Under the pieces are notes generated by a model, which made no database searches, had not been told where the DNA came from, and saw only the letters and a list, made by a program, of their open reading frames with translations. A stretch of 34,619 bases of DNA from Halioglobus sp. GTDB taxonomy: Bacteria > Pseudomonadota > Gammaproteobacteria > Pseudomonadales > Halieaceae. A program made the position numbers and the translations under genes. Shown here one piece after another: positions 23,845 through 34,619 of this stretch. The DNA is taken from NCBI GenBank assembly GCA_020443425.1, contig JAGRIE010000040.1, positions 1 through 34,619 on the forward strand, given 5' to 3'. How positions within the stretch are numbered: position 1 is the first letter of the stretch; each line of letters opens with the position of its first letter.

Positions 23845-23868
23845 ACGCCTATTCAGGCGTTCTTTCTG
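23845..23868 (+). terminator. Rho-independent terminator overlapping the end of the convergent gene
   Basis: ACGCCT-ATTC-AGGCGT followed by TCTTTCT forms a 6-bp hairpin and a T-rich tail, 18 bp after the acyl-CoA synthetase stop. Its right arm includes the stop and last codons of the minus-strand repeat-protein gene. The minus strand lacks a T-run, so it should work mainly for the plus-strand gene. Confidence 0.55.
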
Positions 23869-26800
23869 CGCAGCGGCTGTCTCATCGCGAGTAAGCCGAG
23901 CAGAACCAGCAGCACGGTACCCGGCGCGGGTACCGCGTTGCCATCAATCACATTGACCCTGATCTGCAGGTTGCGCGACTGTGCCAGACCAAAGGGGTCA
24001 GAGTCGTTGTAACTGAACCCGTTGAACGCGATAGTATCCTCAAACAGGCCCAGGCCCGAGGACAGGAAATCGATATTCAGCCCGGAGATCGCATCGCCCG
24101 CACCGAGGTCGCTGAACGGGTCCCAGCCGCTGAGCAGGAAATCGTCGACTGCACTGAGATCGAAATCTCCCATCAGGAAGTCAGCCGGGCCAAATACTGC
24201 GTTTTCCAGTTGCAGCGTGCCGGACGTTGAACTGCCCAGCGCGATGTTGCCGAAATCCAGAATATAGTTGTCGCCGCTCTGCGACAGGGTGCCAAACGCA
24301 GACACCAGGTCGTACTCGGCATTGGCGAGATTGTTCACCTGGGCGCGCACCTGCACCGTACCGTCAGCGCCAGCGGAGACATCCGCCATATCGGGATTCT
24401 GGCTGAGGAAGCTGACGGTGCCTGTCTGGCTGTAGATGCCCGCAGTACCGGTGTCCAGCGCAACAGCGAGATTGCCGCTGTCACCGGAGCCGATATTGCC
24501 TACCGTTGCATCGGCGCTAAAGGCAGTGCCGATACCGCTGAGGTTGGCACGCAGTGTATCGTTCAGCGCCACTGTCGCAGCGGTGTTTTCCACATTGATA
24601 TTGCGCGCGCTTACCGTGTCGCCAACCCGCACGATGCCGAAATCGACTGTCGGTGTATTCAGCTGCCCGACGGCGGGCGCATAGACTTTCCCGTTAACTG
24701 TAACGCTGCCGCTGGCAGTCTGTGCCGCAACATCGGCTGCCCCGGTGGTACCGGCGCCGGTGGAGACGAAATCGAGATTCACCGCGTTGCTGCTGAGCCC
24801 GGCGACTGCAGTGGAACCCAGGCCGACCAGAATGGAGGTGTTGTCACTGGCCTGTGCGGCGAGATTGGCGATACTGCCGCCGTTGCTTTGGGCGTTACCT
24901 GAGGTGCCGGAGACGCTGACTTTCAGGCCCTCAGTGAAACTGTCCGGTGAGGCGTTGCTGATGGAGACAGCCTGATTGGCGGCAACGGCATCGCCGACCC
25001 GGGCCACGACATCCACGCTGGTGGTATTCAGCAGCGGGTTGGCCAATCGATACACTTCGGCGCTCATGTCAACGGTCTGTGAGGGCAGGTTAGTGGGGGT
25101 GCCGCCATTAAAGCTGCCGTCCGATACCAGCGTGACGGTTGCCGAACCCGTGTGTGCGCCCGCGGTATTGGTGCCGGTGAATTGCACTTGCAGCGAACCG
25201 TTGTCCGTGGCACCTGCTGCGAGGCCAGTGAACGAGCCGCTGGCACCAAAGCCGCTGTCGACTGTGGCGATGGAGGCATTCAGGCCCTCACCGATAACCG
25301 CGTTATTGGAAATTGACAGGTCGACCGGGCCGACCGGCGCGGCATCGATACGGACCTTGCCGAAGTCCACCGGATTCGGCGTGACCGGACCGGGTTGAGC
25401 GAGTGTGCCAACATTGGCTTCGACATTGGCGAGTACGCCGATGGCCTGATCGGGCAACGCGGTAATACCCAGACCGCTGGTGCCAGCGCCATTGGAGTCG
25501 AAGGCCACCACCACCTGGCCTGTTTTACTGCCGATTGTGCTGGTATCGATACCCACGGCCATCGCAGAGTTGTTCGATGCACCCGCGGCGAGCAGACTGA
25601 CTGATCCGCCGTTGTTGGTGGCATCGCCAGTAGTGCCGCCCGCCTTGAAGATTGCATCCAGCCGCTCGCTGAAACCATCGTTGGCAGCGGTGTTCTGGAT
25701 ATCCAGTAACTGCGCCTGTGCACTGCCCACCAGTACATTGCCAAAGTTGATCGTGGTCGGCTGTGTATTCGCCTCGGCCAAACGCCAGCCCGTGCCATTG
25801 ACGGTAATGGTCTGTGGGCCGCCAAGCGCGAGTTCGCCGAGGCCGTTGGAACCGCTGGTAGTGATACCATTGGAATTGAATTGCACTGCTACCGTGCCAG
25901 TGTTGAGCCCGGCGTTGATGCCGGACAAACCGATATTCACCGTGCCGTCGCTACCGGCCGTGGCATTGGTAAAGCCGCTGCCCGTGGCCTGGCCCGTAGT
26001 GGAACCGACCACGGCATCCAGCCCTTCCTGAAATCCGGCAGCTGCAATGTTGGTATTGGTTACAGTAATTCCCGGTGCCGACTGGGCGCCCGACCCGGCG
26101 CGGAAGTTACCCAGCTCGACCGTGGCGGGTAGCGGCGCGGACACCTGCGCCACCTGGTACACATTGCCATTCACGGTGACCGCCTGACTGCCCGCTGCGG
26201 CGATGCCAAGTCCGTTGCTGACACCGTTGACGGTGCCCGTGGTTTCATAATCCAGCGTCACCGTGCCGCTCTTCGCACCTGCGCTGCCGGTGCCTACCGC
26301 CACCGAAATTGTGCCGCTGTTATCGGTGGAACCTGCGAGCAGGCCGACAATGTTGCCGCTGCCGCTCACCGCGCCGGTCATGCCGCTGACACTGGCGTTG
26401 AGGTCTTCGCTGAAGCTGCCTGATGCTGCAGTATTACTGACCGAAACCGCTGCGGTGTTGGTGCCGCCAACCCGCTGGTTTGCCACCTGCACCGGTGAGC
26501 CGGCACTACCGACAGCAGCGTTATAGGCCGCTGCGCCGCCTGCGAGTACGATATCGAGCTGTTGGTCGACGATATTCTCGAAGTTGCTGCGAAGATTCAG
26601 TTTCTGGCCGACCAGTGGCGCCAGCAGACCGGAACTCGCGGCGGTGAAAACCACATCGAGATTGCCGGTATCGCTGCCGGGCGCTCCGGTGTTGTAGTTG
26701 CTGGCAGTGACGCCGGCGCCCGAGAGGCGCGCATCGGTGATGTTGCCGCCGTTGACACCGGTTTGTATCGCCCCGCGCAGTGACGGACCGGAGGTGCCGG

Positions 26801-29800
26801 TATTGGCGATCTGGTAGTTGAAGGTGTTGGCACCGACGCGCATATTGCCAATCGTCAAGGTCGCGTTCGGTGTTGAACCATCGGTGATACCGCTGCCGGT
26901 AACTGCCTGCGCCACGTCACCGCCAGCGACGATCTGTCCGGCACCACTGACGCCAGCGCGACGGTCAAAACTGTTGCCCGAGCCGGCTGCGATATTGGTG
27001 TAATCGGAAGTGAGCGTAAGATTCTGAGTGCCGATATCGAGTGCGGCGCCGGTTGCTCCCATCGCAAGCACACCCTGTGTATTTGCCACATTGGCCAGCT
27101 TCATCACACCGCTACTGTCGACCTGCAGCGTTCCAGTGCCGCTCACCTGGACCTGGGAGTTCAGGGTGCCATTCTGTGCACGCACCAGGCCGTTGTTGGT
27201 CAGGGCGGATTCCGTCAGCGTGATGGTGCCGCCACCATCGGAGTTGATAGTGCCGTTGTTGACCAGCACCTGCGTGCCCCCGAAAATAACTTGCGCACCA
27301 ATGGTGCCGTTTTGGCCGCGAATGGTGACCCCGGATCCAAGCGTGGTGGTGCCATTCCCTTCCAGGGTAATACGGTTACTGGCGCCGGTACTACCGAGTA
27401 CCACGGAGCCGGAACCGCCCACTGTGTTGTCGCCTTCGAAGCTGAGGATACTGTTGAGGTTAAGGTTCAGAAGCCCGTCCAGGGTCAACCCGTTGACCAC
27501 GCGCTCACGACCGTTGGCGACGGTGGCCATATCCACAACACCCGTGATCCTCGTTCCATCGAGAACATTAAAGCCGCTGTTGCTGACGCGGAACATACCG
27601 CCGTTGGTGGAGGAAATAGTGCCGCCGGTCACGCGCTGGCCGGACTGAAGGACGAGGCCATTGTCCGCGTGAATGTCAGCGGAACTGCTGTTGGTGACAT
27701 CGCTGGCGAGAACGAGGGTGGCACCGTTGCGTGCTTCAAGCACGTTGTTGTTGTTGACGGTTGATTCGGTGAGCGTCATGGTGCCGCCTGACACATCGGC
27801 GGAGATCAACCCGTTGTTGACCAGCACTTGCGTGCCGCCAATATTGAACTGACCGCCAATGGTGCCATTCTCTCCGCGGATGGTGACCCCTGATTCCAGA
27901 ACAGTCGTACCATTGCCGTCCAGGGTAATACGGTTGCTGGCGCCGGTGTCGCCGAGCACCACCGTGGCGTCGCCGGCCAGTGTGTTATCGCCTTCGAAAC
28001 TCAGGATGCTGTTGAGGTTGAGATCGAGAATGCCATCCAGGGTCAAATCGTTGACCACGCGCTCACGGCCGTTTGCAATCGTGGCCATATCGAAGTTGCC
28101 CGAGATACTGGTTCCGTCCAGGTAGTTCGAACCACTGGTATTGGCGCGGAAAATACCGCCGTTCACAGTGGAAATTGTGCCACCGGTAATGCGCTGTCCA
28201 GACTGTAAGACGAGACTGTTGTCCGCGTGAATTTCTCCTGCGACAGCGTTGTTCACATTGCTGTTCAGAACCAGCGTGGCACCGTTAAGTGCTTCGAGCC
28301 TGTTGTTGTTGTCGATGACCGATTCGGTCAGGGTAAGGGTGCCGCCGTTGACGTCGGCTGAGATGAGCCCGTTATTCACCAGCGTCTGTGTACCGCCGAT
28401 GTTGATCTGCTGTCCAATGGTGCCGTTTTCGCCACGGATTGTGATGCCGGCGCCGATAGTGGTTGTGCCGTTGCCGTCCAGGTCAAAGCGGTTGCCGGGC
28501 CCGGTATCGCCGAGTACCACGGTGCCGTTCCCGTCCAGTGAGTTGTCGCCTTCAAAACTGAGGATGCCGTTCCTGTTGATATCAATCGTACCATCCAGGG
28601 TCAGGCCGTTGATTACCCGTTCACGGGTATTGAGGTTGGTGGACATGTCCAGCAGGCCGGTGAGTGCGACATCGTCGAGAAAATTGGCACCGCTTGCGGT
28701 AACAAGAAATTTTCCGGTGCCGGTGGAATTCATCTCTCCCCCGGTGACGCGCATACCATTCTGTATCACCACACTGTTGTCGGCGAGGATCTCGCCCGCC
28801 GAGTTGTCCACGCCAATCAGCAGGTTCAGGGTGGCACCGTTGCGTGCCTCAATGACACTGTTATTGACGACGGCCGATTCTCTAAGTGTGATCGTGCCAC
28901 CAGTGACGTCGGCCGAGATCAGTCCGTTATTGACCAGCGTCTGTGTGCCGCCGAGGTTGACCTGCTGTCCGATGGTGCCGTTCTCACCACGGAGGGTGAT
29001 GCCGGCGCCGATGGTGGTGGTGCCGTTGCCGTCCAGGTCAAATCGGTTGCCGGGCCCGGTATCGCCAAGTACCACGGTGCCATTGCCGTCCAACAGGTTG
29101 TCCCCTTCAAAACTCAGGATGCCGTTCCTGTTGATATCAATGGTACCGTCCAGGGTCAGGCCGTTGATTATGCGTTCACGGGTATTGAGGTTGGTGGACA
29201 TGTCCAGCAGGCCGCTGAGTGCGACATCGTCGAGAAAATTGGCACCGCTTGAGGTAACAACAAATTTTCCGGTGCCGGTGGCGTTCATCTCACCCCCGGT
29301 GACGCGCATCCCCGTCTGTATAACCACGCCATTTTCGGCGCGTATCTCCCCAGTCGAGTTGTCCACACCAATCTGCAGATTCAGGGTGCCACCACTGCGC
29401 GCCTCGAGGACAGCGTTGTTGATTACCGCAGAGTCTTTAAGTGTGATCGTGCCGCCATTGACGTCGGCCGAGATCAGCCCGTTATTCACCAAGGTTTGTG
29501 TGCCGCTGAGGTTGATTTGCTGTCCTATGGTGCCGTTTTCGCCACGGAGGGTGATGTCGGCACCGATGGTGGTGGTGCCGTTGCCATCCAGGTCGAATCG
29601 GTTGCCGAACCCGGTATCACCAAATACCACGGTGCCATTGCCGTCCAACAGGTTGTCCCCTTCAAAGCTCAGGATGCCGTTTCTGTTGATATCAATTTCG
29701 CCATTGACGGTCATGCCGTTGACCACGCGTTCCCGGCTGTTGAGGGTCGTGGCCATATCAAGCACACCATTCAGTGTGACGCCGCGGAGAAAATTGCTGC

Positions 29801-30320
29801 CGGTGGACGTCGCAAGGAAGCTGCCATTACCGCTTGAATTCAATTCGCCGCCGACCAGGTTGACGCCTCTTAATGCGATGGTTCCGTCGGCATCAGCCAG
29901 CAGTGTGCTGCCTGTGTTTGTCAGTGTGCCGCCGTTCAGGTTGAGTGTACCGGCACTGCTTCCGCCCGCCTGCCAGGTGCCGCCGTTGGTGCCACCGTTA
30001 CTGATTGTGAGCGACGAACCGCCATTGACGACCAGCAGTGCGCTGGCGTTGGTTGTCAGTGAGAGGATAGTGTCGTTGAGGGAATCGTGTGTAATGGTCT
30101 TGAGGCCGGTGACCGTTGTGATGGAGACATCGTCTGCGGCAGCCGGGAGTGACGGATTGGAACTCCAGAGACTGGCGTCTCCCCACAGTCCGCTGACATC
30201 ACTGGTCCAACTGACCGGCGCAGCCTGCACTGCGGCTGAAGCGACAAACATGGCAGAGAGGGCGAAAGCGCCGCGTAAAGCGTTGAAGCGATTCTTATGC
30301 AGAATGAGGGTGTTGCTCAT
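23853..30320 (-). CDS. Giant repeat protein with PEP-CTERM sorting signal
   Basis: A 2155-residue exported protein. Signal peptide is at 1-33 (ending VQA). Beta-rich Gly/Asn/Thr-rich sequence leads into five 185-186-residue repeats, with FEGDN at 219, 404, 589, 775 and 961. From about 1170 to 2030 come several choice-of-anchor-D-like units (VDFGIVRVG, NTAA, 'VTVNGxVY'). A unique Asp/Phe-rich part follows, then a PEP-CTERM tail: VPAPGT, a hydrophobic helix and RRKN. The usual VPEP glutamate is alanine here. PEP-CTERM proteins are handled by an exosortase, which is not in this window. AGGAG eight bases before the ATG fixes the start. No enzyme domain was seen. A surface or matrix structural role is inferred. 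Confidence 0.9.
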   Translation of the reverse strand: MSNTLILHKNRFNALRGAFALSAMFVASAAVQAAPVSWTSDVSGLWGDASLWSSNPSLPAAADDVSITTVTGLKTITHDSLNDTILSLTTNASALLVVNGGSSLTISNGGTNGGTWQAGGSSAGTLNLNGGTLTNTGSTLLADADGTIALRGVNLVGGELNSSGNGSFLATSTGSNFLRGVTLNGVLDMATTLNSRERVVNGMTVNGEIDINRNGILSFEGDNLLDGNGTVVFGDTGFGNRFDLDGNGTTTIGADITLRGENGTIGQQINLSGTQTLVNNGLISADVNGGTITLKDSAVINNAVLEARSGGTLNLQIGVDNSTGEIRAENGVVIQTGMRVTGGEMNATGTGKFVVTSSGANFLDDVALSGLLDMSTNLNTRERIINGLTLDGTIDINRNGILSFEGDNLLDGNGTVVLGDTGPGNRFDLDGNGTTTIGAGITLRGENGTIGQQVNLGGTQTLVNNGLISADVTGGTITLRESAVVNNSVIEARNGATLNLLIGVDNSAGEILADNSVVIQNGMRVTGGEMNSTGTGKFLVTASGANFLDDVALTGLLDMSTNLNTRERVINGLTLDGTIDINRNGILSFEGDNSLDGNGTVVLGDTGPGNRFDLDGNGTTTIGAGITIRGENGTIGQQINIGGTQTLVNNGLISADVNGGTLTLTESVIDNNNRLEALNGATLVLNSNVNNAVAGEIHADNSLVLQSGQRITGGTISTVNGGIFRANTSGSNYLDGTSISGNFDMATIANGRERVVNDLTLDGILDLNLNSILSFEGDNTLAGDATVVLGDTGASNRITLDGNGTTVLESGVTIRGENGTIGGQFNIGGTQVLVNNGLISADVSGGTMTLTESTVNNNNVLEARNGATLVLASDVTNSSSADIHADNGLVLQSGQRVTGGTISSTNGGMFRVSNSGFNVLDGTRITGVVDMATVANGRERVVNGLTLDGLLNLNLNSILSFEGDNTVGGSGSVVLGSTGASNRITLEGNGTTTLGSGVTIRGQNGTIGAQVIFGGTQVLVNNGTINSDGGGTITLTESALTNNGLVRAQNGTLNSQVQVSGTGTLQVDSSGVMKLANVANTQGVLAMGATGAALDIGTQNLTLTSDYTNIAAGSGNSFDRRAGVSGAGQIVAGGDVAQAVTGSGITDGSTPNATLTIGNMRVGANTFNYQIANTGTSGPSLRGAIQTGVNGGNITDARLSGAGVTASNYNTGAPGSDTGNLDVVFTAASSGLLAPLVGQKLNLRSNFENIVDQQLDIVLAGGAAAYNAAVGSAGSPVQVANQRVGGTNTAAVSVSNTAASGSFSEDLNASVSGMTGAVSGSGNIVGLLAGSTDNSGTISVAVGTGSAGAKSGTVTLDYETTGTVNGVSNGLGIAAAGSQAVTVNGNVYQVAQVSAPLPATVELGNFRAGSGAQSAPGITVTNTNIAAAGFQEGLDAVVGSTTGQATGSGFTNATAGSDGTVNIGLSGINAGLNTGTVAVQFNSNGITTSGSNGLGELALGGPQTITVNGTGWRLAEANTQPTTINFGNVLVGSAQAQLLDIQNTAANDGFSERLDAIFKAGGTTGDATNNGGSVSLLAAGASNNSAMAVGIDTSTIGSKTGQVVVAFDSNGAGTSGLGITALPDQAIGVLANVEANVGTLAQPGPVTPNPVDFGKVRIDAAPVGPVDLSISNNAVIGEGLNASIATVDSGFGASGSFTGLAAGATDNGSLQVQFTGTNTAGAHTGSATVTLVSDGSFNGGTPTNLPSQTVDMSAEVYRLANPLLNTTSVDVVARVGDAVAANQAVSISNASPDSFTEGLKVSVSGTSGNAQSNGGSIANLAAQASDNTSILVGLGSTAVAGLSSNAVNLDFVSTGAGTTGAADVAAQTASGSVTVNGKVYAPAVGQLNTPTVDFGIVRVGDTVSARNINVENTAATVALNDTLRANLSGIGTAFSADATVGNIGSGDSGNLAVALDTGTAGIYSQTGTVSFLSQNPDMADVSAGADGTVQVRAQVNNLANAEYDLVSAFGTLSQSGDNYILDFGNIALGSSTSGTLQLENAVFGPADFLMGDFDLSAVDDFLLSGWDPFSDLGAGDAISGLNIDFLSSGLGLFEDTIAFNGFSYNDSDPFGLAQSRNLQIRVNVIDGNAVPAPGTVLLVLLGLLAMRQPLRRKNA
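27068..29852 (-). repeat. Five tandem 555-558 bp repeats within the PEP-CTERM gene
   Basis: The same landmark (TTC in the complement of the FEGDN codons) recurs at 29661, 29106, 28551, 27993 and 27435, giving periods of 555, 555, 558 and 558 bp. The second and third copies are nearly alike over long stretches, while the fourth and fifth form a second pair. A partial sixth unit follows. The boundaries are approximate. Confidence 0.85.
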
Positions 30321-30324
30321 GTGA

Positions 30325-30350
30325 CAAACTCCTGGCCCTGTCTTAGTTTG
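30325..30350 (-). promoter_or_regulatory. Inverted repeat overlapping the ribosome binding site of the PEP-CTERM gene
   Basis: CAAACT (30325-30330) and AGTTTG (30345-30350) are perfect 6-bp arms. The minus-strand AGGAG (complement of 30329-30333) touches one arm. Folding would partly hide the ribosome binding site. Confidence 0.4.
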
Positions 30351-30391
30351 CAGGCTCCGGTGGTCCGTGTTTATTTAGCGAATAGATGACT

Positions 30392-30407
30392 TGCAAGAAA
30401 CGCGCCA
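30392..30407 (-). promoter_or_regulatory. Sigma-54 (RpoN) promoter of the PEP-CTERM gene
   Basis: The minus strand reads TGGCGCG-TTTC-TTGCA. This matches the -24/-12 consensus TGGCACG-N4-TTGCA with one change and exact spacing (GG-N10-GC). Transcription would begin near 30380, giving a leader of about 60 bases. PEP-CTERM/exosortase systems are known to be linked to sigma-54 and the PrsK/PrsR pair. Confidence 0.65.
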
Positions 30408-30502
30408 GTGGTCACCTCACTCCGGAGGCCACAAACGGATTGCAGTGTCAGGCGGGGCTGGCGATTCGCGGCAGGACGACATCTTTTTTTTAAATCTTTA
30501 AA

Positions 30503-30530
30503 ACAGTTATGTGCAGTTCTGCACAGTTAT
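30503..30530. promoter_or_regulatory. Palindrome with flanking direct repeat, candidate activator site
   Basis: TGTGCAG-TT-CTGCACA (30510-30525) is a perfect 7-bp palindrome. ACAGTTAT occurs at 30503-30510 and again at 30523-30530, exactly 20 bp (about two helical turns) apart. It lies about 100 bp upstream of the minus promoter, where a sigma-54 activator such as PrsR would bind. The PrsR site is not known to me, so the assignment is inferred. Confidence 0.4.
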
Positions 30531-30855
30531 TCGAGCTTTCTGGCTGCGCGATTGGCCCGTGACAGCAATCGATCCTGCTGGTTTTAACGGTGTTACGTAT
30601 TGTTGCACTTGTGAGCGCAGTGTAAAGAATCCTGACAGAAAGATTTCGCGGTGCCGGGGAGTAATAGCGCTGTATAGACTCGCGGATAATTGCGATAGCT
30701 TGGAATAAGAGCACTTTGGTTTTGCGCCAGACGCAGCAGCACGCGCATGAGGTGTCAGCTTTTTTTACATTCCGGCTTTCGCGCCGAGTGTGACCGCATT
30801 TGATTTATTTCAAATTTGTTTTTAAAACAAGCGCATATGTGAACTGAGCCATTTT

Positions 30856-30871
30856 TGGTTCAAATTTTGCA
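30856..30871 (+). promoter_or_regulatory. Sigma-54-like promoter of the glycine-rich gene
   Basis: TGGTTCA-AATT-TTGCA keeps the essential GG-N10-GC spacing and the full TTGCA of the -12 element, but differs from TGGCACG at three positions. Transcription would begin near 30882, giving a leader of about 127 bases. It is weaker than the minus-strand element; its likelihood rises because both genes are large secreted repeat proteins. Confidence 0.5.
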
Positions 30872-30941
30872 TGGTTCGCTTTCGATCGATATGACCCGGT
30901 TTTGAATGGAATTGAAGGATGTGGTCTCGATAGTTCATAGC

Positions 30942-31006
30942 AACCTCAAGACCACAAAAATATAAAGATACCGGCCGAAACCGCAAATCGGCCCAAGCTT
31001 GAGGTT
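30942..31006 (+). promoter_or_regulatory. Nested leader hairpin that can hide the ribosome binding site
   Basis: AACCTCAAG (30942-30950) is perfectly complementary to CTTGAGGTT (30998-31006). The latter contains GAGG, the ribosome binding site of the gene at 31009. Inside the loop, GGCCGA (30973-30978) pairs with TCGGCC (30988-30993). The arrangement suits translational control by a ligand, protein, small RNA or temperature. It does not match a riboswitch class I recognise. Confidence 0.5.
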
Positions 31007-31008
31007 TG

Positions 31009-34000
31009 ATGATTATGCCCTCCACCCGGACTTCCCGTGTAGTACCAGCCCTTGTTTTTCCTTTGCTCTCAGCGCTCGCCCTGTCGCTGGTGACCCTTCC
31101 CGGTTGGGCGGCTGTCGATACGGTGAACGGCACGCCGGGCATCTTCGGCGATGCTGGTGCGCCAGGCAATCCGGGTGACCCGGGCACAGACGGTACGGCC
31201 GGCGGTGACGCCACGGCAAATGCTACCACCGTGAATACGGATGCAACCAACACCGCGACAGCGACAGGCGGCAACGGCGGGCGCGGCGGCAATGGCGGTA
31301 CCGGTTCTCCGAGCGGAGCGGATGGCGGTGACGGCGGTGACGGTGCTAATGGTGGCGATGGAGAGGCCACTGCTGACACCACGGTAGCCAGCGGCAATGG
31401 TTCAGCAAGCGCAACCGGTAATGGAGGCGCCGGAGGAGCGGGAGGAAGCGGTGGTTCCGCCAGCGGTGGCGGTACCGCGGGTACGGGCGGCGATGCGGGC
31501 GATGGCGGCAGTGGGACCGCATCCGCGGTTGTCACCAACAATGGTAGCGGCTCGGCCACAGTGAATGCGATCGCAAATGGCGGTAATGGTGGCACTGGTG
31601 GCAGTGTGGGTGGCAATGCTGGAAACGGCGGTATGGCGATCCTGGGGCCTGTCTACGGCACATCCAATGGGGGTGCGGTCACTGTCACTGGCACGGCCAA
31701 TGGCGGTAATGGAGGCACTGCCAGTGGCGCAGGTAGCGCCGGGGACGGTGCCAGTACCAACCTGACCAACCAGGTAGATGGCGACACCTCTGGCAACCTG
31801 ACTCTGACGCAGACAGCGACGGGCGGTAACAGCGGTAATGTCGTCGAGGGTGTCAACGGCGCGGCGGGCGACGCTTTCAGTTCCCTGAGCAAGACCAGCA
31901 GTGCCAGTAGTTTGTTGCAGGTAAACGCCAGAGCCACCGGCGGTAATGGTGGGTATCGGGATACGGCGACCGGTAAGGCCGCGAATGGCGGCGCGGCGAC
32001 ATCGGTATCCGTGGCGGAAAATTCCGTCGGAGAGGCGCGGGCCAATTACAGTTTTGGTGCCGATGCTCAAGGTGGCACCGGCGGTGCCGGTTACAGCGGC
32101 GCGGATGGTGGTGATGGTGGTGTGGCGACCCGCACCGCGACCGCGACGACTATCGGCGACTTTATAGCGCGTACCTATGGCTGGGCCATTGGCGGCAACG
32201 GCGGTGCAATCTTCAGTGGCGCAGGTGGAGGCACGGCGGGCGTGGGTGGCGCGGCGACTGACACGACCACAGTCACTTCAACAGGTAATGGCCTTATTGA
32301 CGCCAATTCGGTTGGTGCCTATGGCGGTAATGGCGGAGTAGTCGGCAGCGGCACCGGCACCGGCGGCGCTGGCGGTGTTGCCACTGCCACGGCCACCGGC
32401 AGCAACGCGGGAACGGCCACGGTAACCGTGGGTACAACGGCCGAGGGCGGTAACGGCGGCTATGGCCGGGGTGTGGGTGAGTCAGGCGGCGCTGGCGCGG
32501 AAGGTGTGATTGTGTCCGCGACCGGCACTTCCACTGGCGGCGGTGCGGTCAATGTGACGGCGGTGCAGCGCGGCGGTGCCGGCGGTGACGGCTATGACGG
32601 TGCCAATGGCGGTGCCGGTGCGGATTCGGACCTGGTCGACGTTGTGACCGGCTCGACTTCCGGCGCCCTGAATTTGACGCAGACGGCGACAGCGGGTGCG
32701 GGTGGAACGGCGCGTGATTCCGCCAGTGCGGCAGGCGCTGCCGGTGACGCCACTTCTTCGCTGACGGCGAATAATTCCGACGGCGGTAATGTTACGGGCA
32801 CCAGCAACGCAGACGGTGGAGCAGGCGGGGGTGCTGCTGGTGCAGGCAACACGACTGACGCGGCCGCAGGTGGTGCCGCTGCGGCGGCTATTGCCATGAC
32901 CGACTCCGGCAATGTAACGGCTAACGCCACGGCGGACGGGGGTAACGGCGGTGCGGCAGTTGATGGTGCAGCGGGCGACGGCGGCGCCGCCGGCCTGGGC
33001 GTCGGCCTGGTGGGTGTGACGGGTGAGTCCACCGGTGGCGGCACGGTCACTGTCAACGGTACGGCCAATGGCGGTAGTGGTGGTGCCACCAGCGGGAGTG
33101 GCGATGCCGGTGACGGAGGAGCGGCTACGCTGAATGGCCTGCCGTATGGCACATCTAATGGTGGCGCAGTCACTGTCAACGGTACGGCCAATGGCGGTAA
33201 TGGTGGCGCTGCGAGCGGTAGCGGCGATGCGGGCGACGGTGCCAGCACCAGCCTGACCGATCAGGTGGACGGCGCCACGACAGGCAGCCTGACCCTGAAC
33301 CAGACGGCAACCGGCGGTAACAGCGGCAGTGTAAATGATGGTGCCAATGGCACCGCGGGTGACGCCTTCAGTTCCCTGACCAGGAGCAGCAGCAGTTCCA
33401 GTTTGCTGCAGGTGAGTGCCAGAGCCACCGGTGGCAACGGCGGGCAACGCAACGCGGCGACCGGCAAGGCCGCCGATGGTGGCGCGGCGACATCGGTCTC
33501 TGTGGCAGAGAATTCAGCGGGTGAAGCGCGGGCCAACTATAACTTTACCTACGACGCCCAGGGTGGCACCGGGGGTGCGGGTACTAATGGCGCGGACGGC
33601 GGCGATGGCGGTGCGGCGACCCGCACCGCGACCGCGACCACGATCGGCGATTTTATCGCGCGTACCTATGGTTGGGCTCTGGGTGGCACCGGCGGCAATC
33701 TCAACGGTGGCACTGGCGGCACTGCCGGTGCCGGTGGCGCCGCAACTGACACCACCACAGTGACGTCCACAGGCAATGGCGCGATCGATTCAAACTCCGT
33801 GGGTGCCTATGGCGGTGATGGTGGCGTCGTTGCCAGTGGAACCGGCACCGGTGGTGCCGGTGGTGTCGCCACGGCCACGGCCACGGGCGGCAACGCGGGG
33901 ACTGCGACAGTGACAGTCGGTACCACCGCGGAAGGCGGCAACGGTGGCTATGGCCGAGGCGTGGGTGAGTCAGGCGGCGCCGGCGCAGAGGGTACGATCG

Positions 34001-34619
34001 TATCCGCGACCGGGACGTCCACGGGTGGTGGAACGGTCAACGTGACGGCGACGCAGCGCGGTGGTGCCGGCGGTGACGGCTATGACGGTGCCGATGGCGG
34101 TGCCGGTGCGGATTCGGACTTGGTCGATGTGGTGACCGGTTCGACTTCAGGCACCCTGAATTTGACGCAGACGGCGATTGCGGGTGCGGGTGGAACGGCG
34201 CGTGATTCCGCCAGTGCGGCAGGCGCTGCCGGTGACGCCACTTCTTCGCTGACGGCGAATAATTCTGACGGCGGCAATGTGACCGGTACCAGTAATGCCG
34301 ATGGCGGCGCAGGTGGCGCGGCTGTTGGTACAGGTAATACGACCGATGCCAGCGCGGGTGGTTCAGCAGCGGCGGCTATCGCGATGACGGATAGCGGCAA
34401 TGTGACGGCCACCGCGACAGCGGACGGTGGTAACGGCGGTGCGGCAGTTGATGGTGCAGCGGGCGACGGCGGCGTCGCCAGCCTGGGCGTCGGCCTGGTG
34501 GGTGTGACGGGCGAGTCCACCGGTGGTGGCACGGTCAATGTCACGGGCACAGCCAATGGTGGTAATGGTGGTAATGCCACCGGCACGGGCGATGCGGGTG
34601 ACGGCGCCAGCACCAGCCT
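31009..34619 (+). CDS. Giant glycine-rich secreted repeat protein, 3' end beyond the window
   Basis: An open frame of more than 1200 codons with no stop before the right edge. Start is 31009 or the in-frame ATG at 31015; GAGG at 31001-31004 serves either. A signal peptide ends near LPGWA-AVD (about 35). Directly after it come eight collagen-like Gly-X-Y triplets (GTPGIFGDAGAPGNPGDP...), then long Gly/Ala/Thr/Asn/Ser-rich sequence full of GGNGG and GGxGG. Almost no Lys or Cys is present. A rare hydrophobic island, DFIARTYGWA, recurs once per super-repeat. No enzyme domain is seen. The composition recalls PGRS-like and other beta-roll surface proteins, without proof of relation. A PEP-CTERM tail beyond the window is plausible. 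Confidence 0.88.
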   Translation, partial: MIMPSTRTSRVVPALVFPLLSALALSLVTLPGWAAVDTVNGTPGIFGDAGAPGNPGDPGTDGTAGGDATANATTVNTDATNTATATGGNGGRGGNGGTGSPSGADGGDGGDGANGGDGEATADTTVASGNGSASATGNGGAGGAGGSGGSASGGGTAGTGGDAGDGGSGTASAVVTNNGSGSATVNAIANGGNGGTGGSVGGNAGNGGMAILGPVYGTSNGGAVTVTGTANGGNGGTASGAGSAGDGASTNLTNQVDGDTSGNLTLTQTATGGNSGNVVEGVNGAAGDAFSSLSKTSSASSLLQVNARATGGNGGYRDTATGKAANGGAATSVSVAENSVGEARANYSFGADAQGGTGGAGYSGADGGDGGVATRTATATTIGDFIARTYGWAIGGNGGAIFSGAGGGTAGVGGAATDTTTVTSTGNGLIDANSVGAYGGNGGVVGSGTGTGGAGGVATATATGSNAGTATVTVGTTAEGGNGGYGRGVGESGGAGAEGVIVSATGTSTGGGAVNVTAVQRGGAGGDGYDGANGGAGADSDLVDVVTGSTSGALNLTQTATAGAGGTARDSASAAGAAGDATSSLTANNSDGGNVTGTSNADGGAGGGAAGAGNTTDAAAGGAAAAAIAMTDSGNVTANATADGGNGGAAVDGAAGDGGAAGLGVGLVGVTGESTGGGTVTVNGTANGGSGGATSGSGDAGDGGAATLNGLPYGTSNGGAVTVNGTANGGNGGAASGSGDAGDGASTSLTDQVDGATTGSLTLNQTATGGNSGSVNDGANGTAGDAFSSLTRSSSSSSLLQVSARATGGNGGQRNAATGKAADGGAATSVSVAENSAGEARANYNFTYDAQGGTGGAGTNGADGGDGGAATRTATATTIGDFIARTYGWALGGTGGNLNGGTGGTAGAGGAATDTTTVTSTGNGAIDSNSVGAYGGDGGVVASGTGTGGAGGVATATATGGNAGTATVTVGTTAEGGNGGYGRGVGESGGAGAEGTIVSATGTSTGGGTVNVTATQRGGAGGDGYDGADGGAGADSDLVDVVTGSTSGTLNLTQTAIAGAGGTARDSASAAGAAGDATSSLTANNSDGGNVTGTSNADGGAGGAAVGTGNTTDASAGGSAAAAIAMTDSGNVTATATADGGNGGAAVDGAAGDGGVASLGVGLVGVTGESTGGGTVNVTGTANGGNGGNATGTGDAGDGASTS
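31657..34619 (+). repeat. Super-repeat of about 1365 bp in the glycine-rich gene
   Basis: Copy 1 spans 31657-33021 (455 codons). A 126-bp (42-codon) extra unit at 33022-33147 follows. Copy 2 spans 33148-34509 (454 codons), and copy 3 begins at 34510 and leaves the window. Landmarks recur at 1491 or 1488 bp, for example the Ala-Phe-Ser-Ser-Leu codons near 31870 and 33361. A segment of over 60 bp around 32713-32775 recurs unchanged near 34201-34263, showing recent duplication or gene conversion. Confidence 0.85.

Follow-up and report, generated by a model that had tools for sequence, protein, structure and literature searches.

The window analysed here is a complete contig (C157) of 34,619 bases from a Halioglobus genome (G000) of 4.33 Mb in 222 contigs, and towards one end it contains two very large divergent genes, gene 1 and gene 2, whose ATG start codons at 30320 (minus strand) and 31009 (plus strand) are separated by an intergenic spacer of 688 nucleotides (nt). 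Within this spacer each gene is preceded by a sigma-54 box and, further upstream, by a box of the type associated with PrsR, an activator of the PEP-CTERM system. The spacer probably represents a set of back-to-back PEP-CTERM-system promoters, each made of a PrsR box and a sigma-54 box, one for each of two giant, presumably secreted proteins. The features concerned are the following.

23853..30320, minus strand: gene 1, 2155 amino acids (aa), with a signal-like N-terminus (by eye), beta-solenoid-predicted repeats, choice-of-anchor D domains and a PEP-CTERM-like tail
23856..23933, minus strand: sorting-type tail of gene 1, VPAPGT...RRKNA, a 33-aa tail scored against TIGR02595 and PF07589
30392..30407, minus strand: gene 1 sigma-54 -24/-12 box, TGGCGCGTTTCTTGCA, 72 nt before the ATG at 30320, exact consensus
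30621..30638, minus strand: PrsR box, CTGTCAGGATTCTTTACA, facing gene 1, with 2 mismatches (16/18 positions), 213 nt upstream of its sigma-54 box
30752..30769, plus strand: PrsR box (Haft motif 1), GTGTCAGCTTTTTTTACA, facing gene 2, exact, 86 nt upstream of its sigma-54 box
30856..30871, plus strand: gene 2 sigma-54 -24/-12 box, TGGTTCAAATTTTGCA, 138 nt before the ATG at 31009
31009..34617, plus strand: 5' part of gene 2, a Gly/Ala-rich repeat protein with a signal-like N-terminus (by eye), truncated by the contig end

An earlier, sequence-only reading of this DNA had placed a GG-N10-GC element in front of each gene, and both elements lie exactly as it claimed, at 30392-30407 on the minus strand and 30856-30871 on the plus strand. 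The gene 1 box is one of four exact matches to TGGCRCGN4TTGCW in the genome, and no exact match arose within 300 nt before gene 1 in 4000 dinucleotide shuffles of the intergenic region. With up to one mismatch allowed, the same pattern has 157 matches genome-wide against 86 for its reversed form. The gene 2 box is weak when taken alone, having three mismatches to the sigma-54 consensus used. For both genes, the -24(GG)/-12(GC) motif is situated between the PrsR box and the start codon, and both sigma-54 elements are raised above chance because they are accompanied by PrsR boxes, which the sequence-only reading had missed, since neither the exact box on the plus strand nor the 16/18 box on the minus strand was reached in any of 4000 shuffles. 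The gene 2 PrsR box is one of only six exact sites in the genome, where a scan with GTGTCAGNWTTTTTTACA (up to three mismatches) returned 32 sites and the reversed pattern only 10; two of the 32 fall in the spacer between gene 1 and gene 2.

This arrangement corresponds to a cis-region that is already known. According to the main text of Haft 2006 (PMC1569441), 99 of 167 proteobacterial PEP-CTERM genes are preceded by a 17-nt motif ending in TTTACA, which is followed, after a spacer with a mean of 62.8 nt (32-92), by a sigma-54 motif whose end lies at an average distance of 71 nt from the start codon; this motif pair was tied to PrsK, PrsR and PrsT. The present locus shares with that system the TTTACA motif followed by a -24/-12 element, the long upstream regions and the presence of PrsK, PrsR and PrsT. 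It differs in having two boxes for a divergent pair and in the gene 1 spacer of 213 nt, compared with a 2006 maximum of 92 nt; the gene 2 spacer of 86 nt is within the published range. A second point of comparison is pepA of Aquincola tertiaricarbonis, which is described in a 2023 paper (PMC9850573) as a PEP-CTERM gene that adjoins prsT, has a mapped -24/-12 promoter and depends on RpoN1. Here too a candidate PEP-CTERM gene with a predicted -24/-12 promoter probably lies next to prsT, although prsT lies downstream of pepA in A. tertiaricarbonis and is convergent with the inferred end of gene 2 in Halioglobus, and the family profile of 261 aa (NF033554) contrasts with proteins of 2155 and more than 3000 aa. 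The suggestion that the pair might form a module not described as such goes too far, as the regulon was described in 2006 and one such gene was reported to depend on RpoN in 2023; the locus is a new addition to an already known regulon.

The components of this regulon are encoded in the genome, which bears out the proposed tie of the locus to the PEP-CTERM system. PrsK (762 bits), PrsR (702 bits) and PrsT (549 bits) are found side by side on contig C166, all over their curated cut-offs, together with a single RpoN (500 bits) in the genome. A second PrsT (628 bits) is located about 50 nt past the inferred end of gene 2, in convergent orientation. The genome thus holds at least two PrsT genes, one beside prsK-prsR (L064, 11093-13870) and one beside the inferred gene 2 end (L130, 2793-5576). 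A scan of the genome for the same promoter before other PEP-CTERM genes, which the sequence-only reading had proposed, gave a positive outcome: among 19 PEP-CTERM matches in a PF07589 search, 13 have the pair of PrsR box and plausible sigma-54 box, the latter being located 42-119 nt ahead of the first ATG. These boxes were hand-picked from the best three per gene, and TTTACA is exact in 11 of the 13 and has one mismatch in the other two.

Relatives of the two genes were sought in 57 genomes, with the Halioglobus genome itself counted in. Matches to gene 1 occur in four genomes and matches to gene 2 in three, with the gene 1 matches in G001 being situated within the C-terminal module of gene 2. 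Both genes are present and divergent in G016 (2307 and 3315 aa), G001 has gene 2 alone (4260 aa), and G002 has gene 1 alone (2340 aa), where the divergent neighbour has a TonB-dependent receptor plug domain. The promoter elements of gene 2 are retained in both relatives that possess it, as GCGTCAGTTTTTTTTACA (one mismatch) and TGGAACAAATTTTGCT with a spacer of 97 nt in G016, and as GTGTCAGCTTTTTTTACA (exact) and TGGTACGAATATTGCG with a spacer of 96 nt in G001. For gene 1, the G002 copy has a PrsR box GTGTCAGGATAATTTACA and a sigma-54 box TGGCTCGTTATTTGCT separated by 207 nt, each of which appeared in 0 of 3000 shuffles, and the G016 copy has ATGTCAAAAAAATTTACA and TGGTATTAATCCTGCA separated by 74 nt. 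No second GG-N10-GC was found within 260 nt downstream of the gene 1 PrsR box in G000 and G002.

On this evidence gene 2 is firmly assigned, by sequence, as a predicted member of the PrsR regulon, whereas PrsR control of gene 1, with its exceptional spacer, is only probable. The claim of sigma-54 control over both genes is consequently upheld for gene 2, with its exact PrsR box and its sigma-54 box kept in G016 and G001, and softened for gene 1. The idea of a shared control region survives only in the sense of a common spacer: each gene is served by a separate box and promoter, the two promoters point apart, and the divergent pairing is kept in one of the three relatives that hold either gene.

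The protein encoded by gene 1 contains choice-of-anchor D domains (NF012200 choice_anch_D, 145 bits over seven stretches) and a repeat unit of about 186 aa. A structure model of residues 145-545 is all-beta with a mean pLDDT of 86, and a Foldseek search with this repeat model gave self-associating beta-helix adhesins as its top matches. The similarity is weak, with E values of 0.001 or less in one of 173 matches, identities of 12-17% for the adhesin matches and a TM-score by query of at most 0.33 among the 50 matches listed. Two such adhesins, antigen 43 and TibA, are autotransporters. The weak likeness to them resides in the all-beta repeat model, and the difference is that gene 1 carries a C-terminal sorting-type tail. 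The N-termini of both proteins are hydrophobic, as judged by eye.

The sequence-only reading had recognised a single PEP-CTERM protein in the pair. Tails of the PEP-CTERM type are predicted at the ends of both proteins, with scores near the cut-offs of the family models. The 33-aa tail of gene 1 scores 16.8 bits with TIGR02595 (cut-off 16; profile positions 1-16 only) and 18.7 bits with PF07589, which is below the cut-off of 20.7, and it went unreported in scans of the full-length protein. The candidate C-terminal part of gene 2 is found at the start of contig C44, in a frame that is open at its 5' side and ends in VPLPGTLVLVVTGLLFMSSRRRRQSPR; its 35-aa tail scores 21.8 bits with TIGR02595 and 23.1 bits with PF07589, both above cut-off, and when the 905-aa C-terminal piece is scanned whole the values are 14.3 and 15.5, both under cut-off. 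Genes 1 and 2 are homologous in their C-terminal parts and therefore share the choice-of-anchor D module and the tail. A scan of genome contigs for gene 2 gave two loci. Gene 2 appears to be split by an assembly gap, of which the repeats are perhaps the cause, and the lengths of its full-length relatives are about 950 residues apart. Gene 2 of G001 is followed by a convergent TPR-like frame (by eye); the stretch examined in G016 ends too early for this comparison.

The distance between the PrsR box and the sigma-54 box follows a rule that extends well beyond this locus. In the 57 genomes, the pattern GTCAN6TTTACA-N60..90-GGN9TGC has 177 sites against nine for a reversed control, and gaps of 91-121 nt add 36 sites against seven (table sums made by hand). 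The spacer is 59-66, 72-77 or 84-87 nt in 149 of the 150 sites listed out of the 177, with the remaining one at 82 nt. The 75 sites read by script, comprising 60 of the 66 sites of seven relatives and 15 of the 16 of the Halioglobus genome, cluster near 64, 75 and 86 nt, with none in the troughs at 67-71 or 78-83 nt. Their best spacer period is 11.1 (R 0.82), a value equalled in none of 5000 uniform draws, and the result is unchanged when similar spacers are merged to leave 72. As the scan pattern fixes GTCA, TTTACA, GG and TGC, the sites form a selected set; the troughs are not a product of this selection because every gap from 60 to 90 nt was allowed. When 185 genomes of the class were drawn evenly, 125 sites were obtained, including 16 from the Halioglobus genome, against 20 for the reversed control (hand sums), and the four other genomes with at least six sites contribute 40, again with none in the troughs.

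Some of these spacers also contain a sequence resembling a binding site for integration host factor (IHF), for which PMC7962754 quotes the consensus WATCARN4TTR. A relaxed reverse form of it, YAAN4TTGWW, is present in 22 of the 75 spacers, compared with a shuffled mean of 1.8 and a maximum of 6. In 21 of the 22 the start of the site is 32-34 nt away from the sigma-54 box on its upstream side, irrespective of spacer length (the other starts at 54 nt), and its distance from the PrsR box moves by turns, being about 31, 42 or 52 nt. For the forward form no clear excess is seen (6 of 75 against a mean of 1.6 and a maximum of 8), and the strict IHF-like form was not found in 53 of the 75 spacers. 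A term search of the main text of Haft 2006 (PMC1569441) returned no instance of 'IHF', 'integration host factor' or 'periodic', with 'helical' occurring only in a reference title. Phasing or an IHF site at PEP-CTERM promoters was not found described in the open-licence literature searched, in which three papers name both 'PEP-CTERM' and 'integration host factor'. The helical spacing and the IHF-like site may thus be new beyond this locus; the type of switch itself is known.

In the mechanism favoured here, the kinase PrsK would activate PrsR, an NtrC-type activator, which would then bind the outward-facing boxes ending in TTTACA. By looping of the DNA, bound PrsR would contact sigma-54 RNA polymerase at the -24/-12 boxes and switch both genes on. 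Across the regulon, the loop would be set by helical phase, with the PrsR box near 64, 75 or 86 nt from the promoter, and at a fair share of the promoters probably also by IHF, sitting on the upstream side of the sigma-54 box at a distance of 32-34 nt. Both products probably enter the exosortase pathway and reach the surface layer of exopolysaccharide, where a surface or matrix function may be expected. Two giant surface proteins would in this way be linked to a signalling system for surface and floc proteins that is known but has seldom been put to the test. Moreover, the spacing rule and the IHF-like site make a precise and testable activation mechanism out of a 20-year-old motif pair, and further PrsR targets can be sought with the rule, among them proteins whose tails are missed by a PEP-CTERM genome search, as both were here.

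A more far-reaching version of this scheme, for and against which the chances are about even, is that the PrsR regulon is under a strict promoter grammar that has not been reported previously. An IHF-bent unit would keep a distance of 32-34 nt from the sigma-54 box on its upstream side, and the PrsR box could shift only by whole turns (near 64, 75 or 86 nt, and 96-97 nt at gene 2 of two relatives) so that PrsR acts from one face of the helix. Gene 1 would break this rule with a loop of approximately 210 nt that is kept in two species, perhaps tuned to fire differently from its divergent partner.

Several observations weigh against these interpretations. The gene 1 spacer of 213 nt (207 nt in G002) is beyond the 32-92 nt range of Haft, and its helical phase in the two species depends on the period assumed. 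The corresponding PrsR box in G016 is weak, matching at 13 of 18 positions. A class of long spacers, which was sought among gaps of 195-225 nt, is not convincing as a separate class: there are 27 sites against 10 in the control, and for 10 of the 27 boxes a second match exists at a normal distance. No strict IHF-like site was found at gene 1, nor does gene 2 appear in the list of matches. In the 185-genome draw, the remaining 69 sites, from 44 genomes with one to five each, include seven in the troughs, compared with 24.5 under a uniform spread, and are likely to be a mixture of true sites and chance matches. The promoter pair is not present at six of the 19 PEP-CTERM genes. Both protein tails are near the PEP-CTERM cut-offs and neither gene was listed by the genome-wide PF07589 search, and the continuation of gene 2 from C157 into C44 is deduced from synteny with full-length relatives.

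An alternative is that only gene 2 is in the PrsR regulon and the gene 1 sigma-54 box is served by another activator, in which case the genes would not be co-regulated. The generic sigma-54 box of gene 1 is the best in the region and yet lies at an abnormal distance from its PrsR box, and the genome encodes other NtrC-type activators, with seven further matches above 200 bits. This explanation is nevertheless considered unlikely, as a correctly oriented PrsR box stands 213 nt away in one species and 207 nt away in another, the intergenic sequences of the two having otherwise diverged, the boxes appeared in 0 of 4000 and 0 of 3000 shuffles, respectively, and a weaker box is located at 74 nt in G016. 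It is more doubtful still that gene 1 is read from a sigma-70-type promoter overlapping the TTTACA of the minus-strand box, with the sigma-54 box being fortuitous. A sigma-70-like TTTACA-N16-AACAAT does lie on the minus strand at 30626-30599, but one such match is what shuffling yields (mean 1.0), and the sigma-54 box of gene 1 is exact and has a counterpart in G002.

Finally, the elements of the spacer might all be chance matches. Of 4000 shuffles, 100 produce the plus-strand sigma-54 box, taken alone as TGG-N8-TTGCW within the 300 nt preceding gene 2, and sigma-54 matches with up to three mismatches are not in excess in the window (66 against 79.9 expected). Of the three further exact sigma-54 matches that the genome contains, none has a plain promoter location, one being inside a 499-aa frame and two overlapping shorter frames; just one of four exact matches is plainly at a promoter position, and therefore the generic consensus alone predicts little. 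Even so, the outcome of shuffling for both PrsR boxes and for the sigma-54 box of gene 1, the conservation in relatives and the reversed-pattern controls make coincidence scarcely credible, and back-to-back promoters of the PEP-CTERM system are the preferred explanation.

A number of other sites in the genome resemble those of the regulon. At C140:35487 (L098), and at L166 and L175, a PrsR box and a sigma-54 box with a spacer of 75 nt precede a short frame (89 aa in G000) that has no PEP-CTERM tail; similar spacer sequences occur in G016 and G002, suggesting a conserved target of another type. PrsR-type sites at C189:135524 (L106), C159:1848 (L111) and C166:9667 (L121) have a sigma-54-like box at 75, 65 and 86 nt, respectively, and the frames downstream of them are without an obvious PEP-CTERM tail or were read partway. 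At C55:39843, C178:125437 and C11:65064 the pair is accompanied by proteins with VPxPxT-type tails that are outside the 19 PF07589 matches.

In the spacer itself, a possible leader hairpin (30973..30993, plus strand) is situated directly 5' of the gene 2 start region, where a 51-nt fold has a predicted energy of -13.6 kcal/mol and a z-score of -2.2; the z-score for the complete 149-nt leader is just -0.3. Sequence similar to it is seen by eye at the matching place in G016 and G001. Terminator-like matches number two, against a shuffle mean of 0.7, and an Rfam search of positions 30200-31100 gave nothing at gathering scores. Tandem Repeats Finder reported no arrays between 23800 and 34619, with a period limit of 500 bases that leaves the gene repeats outside or at its reach. 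The remaining frames of the window that were scanned encode ordinary metabolism, including glucose-6-phosphate dehydrogenase, a 6-phosphogluconolactonase-type protein, an ILVD/EDD dehydratase, parts of a TRAP transporter, a glutamine synthetase-like protein, aldehyde and iron alcohol dehydrogenases, an AMP-binding ligase and FAD proteins.

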